This document shows, piece after piece, positions 5,291-39,816 of a DNA stretch of 53,740 bases. This stretch comes from Actinomycetota bacterium. Lineage in GTDB: Bacteria; Actinomycetota; Actinomycetes; Nanopelagicales; Nanopelagicaceae. The DNA lies in assembly GCA_016870455.1 (NCBI GenBank), contig VGBN01000004.1, positions 1-53,740 of the forward strand, in the 5' to 3' direction. The translations under genes were made by a program, and so were the position numbers. Position 1 is the stretch's first letter, and each line of letters opens with the position of its first letter. The notes under the pieces were generated by a model that worked only from the letters and a program-made list of their open reading frames with translations, made no database searches and had not been told where the DNA came from.

Positions 5291-5343
5291 TCTCACAACC
5301 GTGAGACCTTCATCCAACGGATCGTCGGGCACGTACCTGCCCG
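5291..5343 (+). promoter_or_regulatory. Two inverted repeats in the leader of the ATPase gene
   Basis: TCTCAC-AACC-GTGAGA (5291-5306) lies at the predicted transcription start and could be an operator. CGGGCA-CGTACC-TGCCCG (5326-5343) ends at the first base of the Shine-Dalgarno region GGAGAAGGAG, so its folding could limit ribosome access. Both arms are perfect but only 6 bp long. Confidence 0.4.
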
Positions 5344-5360
5344 GAGAAGGAGTAAAGAAA

Positions 5361-36998: not shown

Positions 36999-38012
36999 CT
37001 AAACCTCTTCTGCGTCGACAAGTTCATCATCAACTGCACTTCCATAATTGGCATGCTTAGTTGGATCAAAACCAACTGGGCTGTCTTTTAACTGCATTCC
37101 CATGGATTGTAACTTTGCTTTAACCTCATCAATTGATTTGGATCCAAAGTTACGTATGTCCATAAGATCTGCCTCAGAGCGAGAAAGTAACTCTCCAACG
37201 GTGTGAATTCCTTCGCGCTTTAAGCAGTTATAAGAACGAACAGTTAAATCAAGATCTTCGATAGGAAGTGCCATATCTGCAGCAAGTGCTGCATCTTGAA
37301 TGGAAGGTCCCATCTCAATACCTTCTGCGTTGGTATTTAACTCACGTGCTAAACCAAACAACTCAACTAAAGTTTTTCCAGCTGATGCCATTGCATCTGC
37401 CGGCTTAATTGATCTCTTTGTTTCAACATCAATTACCAATCGATCAAAGTCGGTACGTTGCTCAACACGAGTTGCCTCTACCTTGTAGGTAACGCGCAAA
37501 ACAGGTGAATAGATAGAGTCAACTGGAATTCGACCAATCTCACCCCCTGCTTGCTTATTTTGCACAGCGGTGATGTAACCACGACCACGCTCAACTGTTA
37601 ACTCAATCTCAAACTTTGCCTTTGAGTTCAAGGTGGCAATATGAAGCTCTGGGTTGTGTACTTGAACCCCAGCTGGTGCTGCTACATCTGCACCAGTAAC
37701 AACTCCCTCACCATTTTTACGTATGTAAAGTAGTGATGGCTCATCGTTATCTGAGGATAAAACTAAATTTTTGATGTTTAAGACGATCTCAGTTAGATCC
37801 TCTTTCACACCTTCTAATGTTGTGAATTCATGCAACGCATTGTTTACTCTAATTCCAGTAACAGCTGCTCCTGGAATTGAAGATAACAAGGTGCGACGAA
37901 TTGAATTACCAAGGGTGTAACCAAAACCTGGCTCAAGCGGCTCAATGATGAACCGTGAACGGTATTCGCTTACTACTTCCTCAGTGAGGATTGGGCGTTG
38001 TGCAATCAGCAC
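36999..38012 (-). CDS. rpoA: RNA polymerase alpha subunit
   Basis: The alpha dimer scaffolds RNA polymerase assembly, and its C-terminal domain contacts upstream promoter DNA and activators. The 337 residues are of standard size. The N-terminal domain has [20 protein letters not shown] and [11 protein letters not shown]. The C-terminal domain (from about residue 250) has [19 protein letters not shown] and [12 protein letters not shown]. The start is GTG 38012 with a strong GGAGG seven bases before. The 103-base gap after rpsD holds a 6-bp hairpin (GGAAGA/TCTTCC, 38033-38056) of unknown role and no clear promoter. Confidence 0.98.
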
Positions 38013-38115
38013 TGTGTTCCTCCGTATGTTCTGGAAGACCCTCTATTTGATCTTCCGGTTGGCTTACATTATTTAGTTTTTACTGCGATAAATCTTTACT
38101 GCTTTAAAAATTTGA

Positions 38116-38742
38116 TTACTTGGAGTAAAGCTCAACAATTAGTTGCTCTTGTACCTGAGTATCAATAATTGGGCGGGTAGGAGTTGAGTGGATAAGGATT
38201 CTCATCTTTGATCCGACTACCTCCATCCATGCTGGAACAGATTTCTCACCAAGTTCAGCGCTGGCAACGATGAATGGTGTGGAGTCCAGCGAGGCAGTGA
38301 CCACATCAATTACATCCATTGGAGTAACTCGAAATGATGGAATATTTACACTCTTTCCATTTACCAAGAAGTGACCGTGGCGAACTAACTGACGTGCCAT
38401 ATCACGGCTCTTTGCAAAGCCAGCTCGGAAAACAACATTGTCCAAACGAGTTTCTAGAAGTACTAGAAGGTTTTCACCAGTCTTACCTTGCAGACGGTTG
38501 GCCTCTTCGTAATAACCACGGAATTGTCTTTCTAGAATTCCATAAATACGAGCGCACTTTTGCTTTTCACGCATCTGTAGTAAGTACTCAGAATCCTTTG
38601 AGCGAGCGCGACCATGTTGTCCTGGTGGATATGGTCGAGATTCAATTGGACACTTTGGTCCATCACATTTTGAGCCCTTAAGGAAGAGCTTTACTTTTTC
38701 GCGACGGCATCTTTTGCAATCTGCACCTGTGTAGCGAGCCAT
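38116..38742 (-). CDS. rpsD: 30S ribosomal protein S4
   Basis: This is a 208-residue primary 16S-binding protein that also controls alpha-operon translation in several bacteria. It has the zinc-type N-terminus with Cys9, Cys12, Cys26 and Cys31. The S4 RNA-binding domain begins near LETRLDNVVFRAGFAKSRD and includes GHFLVNGKSVNIPS. GAGAGG precedes ATG 38742. It is the obvious candidate ligand for the structured leader ahead of rpsM in this same operon, by analogy only. Confidence 0.97.
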   Translation of the reverse strand: MARYTGADCKRCRREKVKLFLKGSKCDGPKCPIESRPYPPGQHGRARSKDSEYLLQMREKQKCARIYGILERQFRGYYEEANRLQGKTGENLLVLLETRLDNVVFRAGFAKSRDMARQLVRHGHFLVNGKSVNIPSFRVTPMDVIDVVTASLDSTPFIVASAELGEKSVPAWMEVVGSKMRILIHSTPTRPIIDTQVQEQLIVELYSK

Positions 38743-38758: not shown

Positions 38759-39190
38759 TTATACTCGACGTGGTTTACGTGGACGGCAACCGTTATGAGG
38801 AGCTGGTGTTACATCTGCGATGGCACCAACCTCAAGTCCTGCTGCTTGTAATGAACGAATTGCAGTTTCCCGACCAGAGCCAGGTCCCTTAACAAATACA
38901 TCAACCTTCTTTAACCCATGTTCTGCTGCTTTGCGAGCAGCAGCTTCGGCTGCCATTTGTGCAGCAAATGGAGTTGATTTTCGTGATCCCTTAAATCCAA
39001 CCTGACCAGATGATGACCAAGCAATTACACCACCCGCTGGATCGGTAATAGAAACAATGGTGTTGTTAAATGTGCTCTTGATGTAAGCATGTCCGAAGGC
39101 AACATTTTTCTTATCCTTCTTACGTGCTTTGATCTTCTTAGGTGCAGCCTTTGCTGCTTCCTTTGCTGGTTTAGTTTTTTCGGCGGCCAT
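38759..39190 (-). CDS. rpsK: 30S ribosomal protein S11
   Basis: S11 lines the 30S platform near the E-site and the Shine-Dalgarno helix. The 143-residue protein starts with an Ala/Lys-rich extension, then the core [20 protein letters not shown], and the conserved [20 protein letters not shown] and [18 protein letters not shown]. Its start shares one base with the rpsM stop (TAATG), so it is translated with rpsM. rpsD begins 16 bases after its end. Confidence 0.97.
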
Positions 39191-39567
39191 TACTTGGTCT
39201 CCTTCTTCTTACCAGCGATAGCAACACGTGGACCCTTGCGAGTGCGAGCATTGGTGTGAGTACGCTGTCCGCGAACTGGCAATCCCTTACGGTGACGTGA
39301 TCCTTGATAGCTTTGAATATCAACTTTGCGACGGATGTCGCTAGCGATCTCCCGGCGAAGATCACCCTCAATTTTGTAATTTGCTTCAATAAACTCACGA
39401 AGCTTTGCCAAATCTGGCTCTTGTAAATCTTTGACTCGGATATCTGGTGAGATACCAGTGGCAGCAAGTGTTGCCTGCGCACGGGTAAGACCCATTCCGA
39501 AAATATAGGTAAGTGCAACCTCAACACGCTTTTCGCGGGGAAGATCGACACCAACAAGACGTGCCAT
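39190..39567 (-). CDS. rpsM: 30S ribosomal protein S13
   Basis: S13 is in the 30S head and bridges to the large subunit and P-site tRNA. The 125 residues begin [23 protein letters not shown] and end in the basic tail [23 protein letters not shown] 39567 is preceded by CAGG eight bases away. It is the first gene of the rpsM-rpsK-rpsD-rpoA-rplQ set. The 135-base upstream gap contains the pseudoknot-like element and the tandem palindromes listed separately, so it is probably the controlled cistron. Confidence 0.97.
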
Positions 39568-39588
39568 ATCGCTAACCTGTTTCTTCTA

Positions 39589-39654
39589 TCCGAAAGGTCC
39601 TCCGCAATGCCTCCAGATAACTTCTTATCTGGCCCCAGCCTTTCGGACTGAGGG
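39589..39654 (-). promoter_or_regulatory. Candidate pseudoknot leader of the rpsM (alpha) operon
   Basis: Reading 5' to 3' on minus, the segments are contiguous. P1 left is CCCTCAG (39654-39648); P2 left is TCCGAAAGG (39647-39639); P1 right is CTGGGG (39638-39633). Then comes the hairpin CCAGATAA-GAAG-TTATCTGG (39632-39613), a 15-base linker containing GGAGGA, and P2 right CCTTTCGGA (39597-39589). P1 pairs 6 bp with one bulged U, P2 9 bp and P3 8 bp. The loop of P1 is exactly the left strand of P2, the geometry of an H-type pseudoknot. The rpsM ATG is 21 bases further. S4 or another operon protein is the likely ligand, by analogy with E. coli. Confidence 0.6.
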
Positions 39655-39655
39655 T

Positions 39656-39681
39656 CTTAATTAAGTTTTACCTTAATTAAG
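39656..39681. repeat. Two identical 10-bp palindromes upstream of rpsM
   Basis: CTTAATTAAG occurs at 39656-39665 and again at 39672-39681, with a 16-base period and six bases between. Each copy is self-complementary, so they could be tandem protein sites on DNA or pair with each other as one 10-bp RNA stem. Confidence 0.75.
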
Positions 39682-39702
39682 TCACATCACGCGTTTTTTT
39701 AT

Positions 39703-39816
39703 TTAACCCTGACGTTGTTTATGACGTAGGTTGTCGCAGATCACCATAACGCGATTCTTACGACGAATGACTTTGCACTTGTCGCAAATCTTCTTCACGC
39801 TAGGTTTGACCTTCAC
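39703..39816 (-). CDS. rpmJ: 50S ribosomal protein L36
   Basis: This is a small gene of 37 codons. The start is GTG 39816, preceded by GGAAAGG, and the stop is TAA at 39705-39703. The product begins [20 protein letters not shown] and keeps the zinc-ribbon ligands Cys11, Cys14, Cys27 and His32, so it is the zinc-containing form of L36. It lies between infA and the rpsM leader, the standard position. Confidence 0.95.

Follow-up and report, generated by a model that had tools for sequence, protein, structure and literature searches.

A conserved pseudoknot leader RNA in front of the rpsM operon of the class Actinomycetes

The noncoding gap between rpmJ and rpsM in a 53,740 nt stretch of DNA from a member of the Nanopelagicaceae (contig VGBN01000004.1, positions 1 to 53,740; the window, below) carries a pseudoknot leader that is a real RNA structure, kept by matching mutations on both of its strands. 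The leader is a new RNA family of an already known kind, the ribosomal-protein leader, and sequence comparison makes it highly probable that it acts as an on/off switch, hitherto undescribed, for the synthesis of ribosome parts. The reading we prefer, at a probability of about 0.75, is that it would exert cis-acting translational feedback control on the rpsM operon through one of the operon's own proteins, whose binding and repression we infer. How Actinomycetes, Streptomyces and Mycobacterium among them, control the making of their ribosomal proteins has hardly been studied; the leader is as widespread as that class and is absent from Rfam release 15.

The genes around the leader stand in the mRNA order infA-rpmJ-rpsM-rpsK-rpsD-rpoA-rplQ, with the leader between rpmJ and rpsM. 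On the minus strand of the window, rpmJ (39703-39816) is the 5' neighbour of the gap, which is followed by rpsM (S13; 39190-39567), presumably the first gene controlled and one whose homologues were recovered, rpsK (S11; 38759-39190), rpsD (38116-38742; an S4 of the four-cysteine type, still within the operon in this genome), rpoA (RNA polymerase alpha; 36999-38012) and rplQ (L17; 36586-36990). The gap spans 39568-39702, exactly the boundaries given in the original prediction, and its 135 nt encode the whole of the leader RNA. Its fold has an energy of -44.5 kcal/mol against -26.5 +/- 3.35 kcal/mol for dinucleotide shuffles (z = -5.4, with none of 200 shuffles as good), in a calculation that ignores the pseudoknot. 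There is no poly-U terminator within the gap.

The minus strand has all the segments listed in the original prediction, ordered and spaced as it said: ACCCTCAG-TCCGAAAGG-CTGGGG is followed by CCAGATAA-GAAG-TTATCTGG, a linker of 15 nt and CCTTTCGGA, after which 21 nt remain before the rpsM ATG. It had the pseudoknot core right and overlooked two helices, P1 and P2; the linker has the length claimed but is not a plain linker, as it contains the 3' strand of P1. All leader coordinates that follow are on the minus strand, listed from the 5' end of the RNA. The outer stem P1 (CGTGATGT/GCATTGCG as DNA) opens with its 5' strand CGUGAUGU at 39684-39691, recognised from the MFE fold and from the comparison of pairing within and between species. 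The P2 hairpin, CUUAAUUAAG-GUAAAA-CUUAAUUAAG at 39656-39681 (CTTAATTAAG-GTAAAA-CTTAATTAAG as DNA), comes from the MFE fold and lies in the 5' part of the gap; its sequence and length are highly variable across the class. P3, which is defined by covariation and by the tree, has the 5' strand CCUCAG (39648-39653), preceded by an AC that is invariant in set A6, and the 3' strand CUGGGG (39633-39638). Its loop, UCCGAAAGG at 39639-39647, is the 5' strand of the pseudoknot and is supported by covariation, the tree and a test of loop against strand. The P4 hairpin, CCAGAUAA-GAAG-UUAUCUGG at 39613-39632, rests on the fold and on comparison with shuffles, and the P1 3' strand GCAUUGCG at 39603-39610 on the MFE fold and the pairing test. 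A 5-nt linker, GAGGA (39598-39602), then separates P1 from the pseudoknot 3' strand CCUUUCGGA (39589-39597), which is complementary to the P3 loop and is again supported by covariation and the tree; in most of the class this linker is CAGA-like, and its final A is kept in 97 of 98 sequences. The strand ends 21 nt before the rpsM ATG, and direct reading places a probable Shine-Dalgarno core, CAGG, at 39576-39579, 8 nt 5' of that codon. In the resulting model P1 closes a junction of the hairpins P2, P3 and P4.

For comparison we drew on rpsM loci of the window's genus and of its class, together with 80 named actinomycete records, which include Nocardia, Rhodococcus, Mycobacterium, Micromonospora, Frankia, Arthrobacter, Curtobacterium, Brevibacterium and Actinomyces. 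Searched with a descriptor, almost all of the relatives' loci prove to be built alike. They have the AC dinucleotide, a six-pair P3 and a loop, 6-11 nt long, that pairs through its 3' part with a downstream strand; across the class, 17-29 nt lie between the end of the pseudoknot and the rpsM start codon. A covariance model built without the pseudoknot (R1) matches 99 of 100 chosen loci, with one match each, all abutting the rpsM start; the core was aligned to this model, since MAFFT alignments slip by one base where loop length differs. Among the 99 aligned copies the share of paired cells is 99.7% for P3 and 97.6% for the pseudoknot, and both-sided changes are seen at five of the six pairs in each. 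Double-changed cells number 110, where shuffles give 17.1 and none of 500 reaches the observed count; pairing falls to 31-60% in slid control structures. On a tree of 99 genomes made from the RpsM, RpsK, InfA and RpmJ proteins, parsimony counts 32 pair-preserving double replacements in P3 and 16 in the pseudoknot, whereas slid controls show 0-4. The pseudoknot takes forms as different as CGGAGG/CCUCCG, CAGAGG/CCUCUG, CGAAGG/CCUUCG, CACGGGG/CCCCGUG, CUGAAAG/CUUUCAG, CGGGAG/CUCCCG and the window's own UCCGAAAGG/CCUUUCGGA. For the 18 species whose loop lacks GGAGG, loop and strand pair with a score of 17.5 within species and 10.3 between species, and every one of the 18 exceeds the between-species mean.

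P1 pairing scores 20.1 within species and 16.0 between species, a difference that is barely separable when the search region is too wide and that separates when it is restricted, and the P1 helices include dozens unrelated in sequence, for example CACGAAUGUU/AACAUUCGUG. P4 regions fold at -13.2 kcal/mol against -6.9 kcal/mol when shuffled, and 13 of the 88 leaders examined, mainly those of Microbacteriaceae, lack P4 or have one of insufficient length. Both P3 and the pseudoknot contain G-U pairs on the sense strand, which points to selection acting on the RNA of that strand. Gaps rich in GC often contain short stems, and shuffles reach descriptor scores within the lower part of the range of real ones, as might be expected if the complementarity had arisen by chance or reflected a signal at the DNA level; the compensatory changes and the G-U pairs refute this explanation, to which we give next to no weight.

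Genomes were scanned with a second covariance model, R2, which detected the element in 169 of the 197 Actinomycetes genomes and in 72 of 81 genera, nearly always as a single copy. This count is a lower bound, because two genomes scored negative (G005 and G014) do carry the leader (at loci L016 and L005). All 25 of the newly fetched whole-genome matches to R2 end at the rpsM start. The leader is absent at two loci of Jiangellaceae (L027 and L032) and one of Blastococcus (L080), and is thus dispensable in some lineages. In a scan of the whole phylum, none of the fetched matches from outside the class adjoins rpsM; the rpmJ-rpsM gap of the fetched non-class rpsM loci is usually 1-47 nt, and in three larger gaps of 129-197 nt the element was not visible by eye. 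Since no copy was found beside rpsM outside the class and the gaps there are mostly short, the leader looks like an innovation of the class Actinomycetes.

No family of Rfam release 15 matches the leader, either in the window or in 15 relatives. The search with Alpha_RBS, the E. coli element of this operon and more broadly the S4 leader of gammaproteobacteria, was made at the gathering score and also with E-values up to 5 for the window region and up to 0.5 for the 15 relatives; we rejected identity with it on the grounds that the model does not match, the position is another one and the topology is different. The two sites are alike in that both are pseudoknots beside the rpsM initiation site of the same operon with the same first gene, bound in E. 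coli by S4. The E. coli alpha-operon pseudoknot extends into the coding region. It also includes the ribosome-binding site (PMC10931766), whereas the pseudoknot described here ends 17-29 nt upstream of the start and leaves the ribosome-binding and start region outside it. The S4 leaders of Clostridia and Fusobacteriales likewise lie 5' of rpsM-rpsK-rpsD-rpoA-rplQ, but the description of them (PMC7247131) mentions no pseudoknot and gives a conserved GAAA or GUAA, which the Actinomycetes leader does not keep; by eye, the GUAA of the Firmicutes and Fusobacteria leader is present in P2 of the window's genus and is not conserved across the class. None of the 20 ribosomal leaders reported in 2020 belongs to rpsM of Actinobacteria (PMC7247131). 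Autogenous translational repression of rpsO by S15 in M. smegmatis depends on an upstream pseudoknot (PMC8470358), and that leader too is an actinobacterial 5' UTR pseudoknot upstream of a start codon; it belongs to another gene and is another RNA, so that the strategy is in common and not the ancestry. The papers searched, which included few subscription papers, contain no description of the leader that we could find. The original prediction of an independent actinobacterial pseudoknot leader for the rpsM operon, distinct from the E. coli element, is therefore strongly supported, both by the compensatory changes in the two stems and by the lack of an Rfam match, Alpha_RBS included.

The rpsM 5' UTR of M. 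tuberculosis, 216 nt long, is among the most abundant 5' UTRs of that organism, and from an alignment of the rpsM and rpoA 5' UTRs the authors of the study suggested that rpsM is regulated coordinately with rpoA (PMC3207917). The main text of that study describes no structure, pseudoknot or wider conservation (PMC3207917). This 5' UTR is very probably the same element as the leader described here.

The leader has what ribosomal-protein leaders in general have, a conserved, covarying RNA structure 5' of a ribosomal-protein operon, and its pseudoknot abuts the Shine-Dalgarno region and so is positioned to affect ribosome binding. Control of translation initiation is the natural reading, because the pseudoknot strand is the immediate 5' neighbour of the Shine-Dalgarno region and the missing terminator favours translational control. 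By this mechanism an operon protein in excess over rRNA would bind the junction and the pseudoknot and stabilise the fold, 30S subunits would be blocked or trapped at rpsM by the stabilised pseudoknot, and rpsM, along with the downstream genes through coupling, would be translated less. A simple sequester/release switch, in which the anti-Shine-Dalgarno-like CCUCC of the pseudoknot strand pairs with the Shine-Dalgarno sequence, is suggested by the window's fold; it is unsupported, because such pairing is not conserved (9.69 within species, 9.58 between). A role for the P3 loop as a Shine-Dalgarno-like decoy (CGGAGG) was likewise rejected, as that sequence is not conserved and loops such as GCAGCAGG, CACGGGG and CTGAAAG keep the pairing. 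Ungapped similarity to 16S rRNA does not rise above that of shuffles (10.7 and 10.5), so that no mimicry argument can be made for any ligand, and the resemblance of GCGGAGGACCUU to GCGAAGAACCUU of 16S rRNA near position 970 is confined to the window's clade.

The leader might instead be constitutive, a standby or mRNA-stability element and not a protein-controlled switch, as would fit a structure that shows no conserved alternative and whose conserved nucleotides are mostly within helices. We consider this unlikely: a long-kept pseudoknot, a junction and an invariant AC beside a ribosomal-protein start typify regulated leaders, and stability alone needs no conserved single-stranded positions. 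Feedback control by an operon protein remains the reading we favour, and for it the candidate ligands can be ranked. S4 is the leading single candidate, S13 comes after it at the same level as another protein or none, and S11 is the least probable.

S4 is the default candidate, being the regulator of the rpsM operon in E. coli and, presumably, the ligand of the leaders in Clostridia and Fusobacteriales (PMC7247131). Here it would bind through an unrelated pseudoknot, in trans where rpsD has moved, and its gene is in the operon in the window's genome, which is the inferred ancestral state. Among the 99 leader-bearing genomes of the tree, rpsD is in the operon in 62 (a figure that counts L069, where the state is undetermined) and outside it in 37; it left the operon at least twice, in the Micrococcales/Actinomycetales and in the Streptomyces-like clade, and is outside it at two further leader loci, L232 and L235. 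The leader stayed at rpsM after these departures, in which the operon copy was replaced by detached S4 proteins that are 41-47% identical to the window's S4. No leader copy was found at solo rpsD genes, whether at 27 loci from genomes without an operon rpsD (counting Segeticoccus, which has both kinds) or at four Streptomyces-like loci; the sole strong match in that search is the Segeticoccus rpsM leader itself, on the same contig. Conversely, all three loci that lost the leader (L027, L032 and L080) retain rpsD in the operon, and the Firmicutes-type GUAA, an rRNA mimic, is by eye not conserved. Taken together these observations leave S4 a tentative choice, well short of an even chance, and weaken the original prediction in its naming of S4; that prediction had already allowed for S13 or S11.

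The leader tracks rpsM and not rpsD. Because it stays at rpsM while rpsD moves, S13 and S11 are serious candidates, and their genes, rpsM and rpsK, lie directly 3' of the leader in every locus checked, those without rpsD included. With either one the operon would have a regulator so far unseen; a search of the literature turned up no case of S13 autoregulation. Neither protein is known as an autoregulator or as a primary 16S-binding protein. That the ligand is one of these two is a sizeable possibility, approaching an even chance. What regulates the alpha operon once rpsD has gone is the question the leader raises, and the lineages half answer it already; comparing strains that have a linked rpsD with strains that lack one offers a natural experiment for telling S4 from S13 and S11.

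Several features of the S4 genes are recorded here in their own right. Segeticoccus (loci L112 and L138; contig 737 of G064) has two S4 genes about 2.4 kb apart on one contig, the operon S4 being 76% identical to the window's and the second copy 57%. The solo rpsD loci L113-L137 (Micrococcales/Actinomycetales) apparently have a different structured leader of their own, for example CCTGGGGTCTCAGCC...GACCCCGTG or TGTAGCCGA..., with no Rfam match in the nine loci tested; it is possibly a separate S4 leader belonging to the detached rpsD. At L121 (G036), TTAGGTTAGGCTCACCTAAG, which resembles a DtxR/IdeR iron box, lies shortly 5' of the only rpsD found.

A second conserved element, the hairpin GGAAGAUC-AAAUAGAG-GGUCUUCC, stands at 38033-38056 on the minus strand of the window, 20 nt 5' of rpoA. 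In the class, 81 of 85 loci have it at a distance of 13-27 nt upstream of rpoA, with a conserved loop A(A/U)AU(A/G)GCG and a covarying stem that has many compensatory changes, and it has no match in Rfam; the motif also occurs in two members of the phylum outside the class that have no rpsM leader (L170 and L171). We regard it as a candidate second leader, for rpoA-rplQ. The rpsM and rpoA 5' UTRs, whose alignment underlay the idea of coordinate regulation (PMC3207917), hold two different elements, and the hairpin may explain why Arnvig et al. compared them. It is possible, though less likely than not, that the classical S4 control was replaced in Actinomycetes by an S13 or S11 pseudoknot, which would make this and the rpoA hairpin two independent new controls. 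Elsewhere in the window, an msiK RNA (Rfam RF01747) lies at 5300-5358 on the plus strand, with 65.9 bits against a gathering score of 33.
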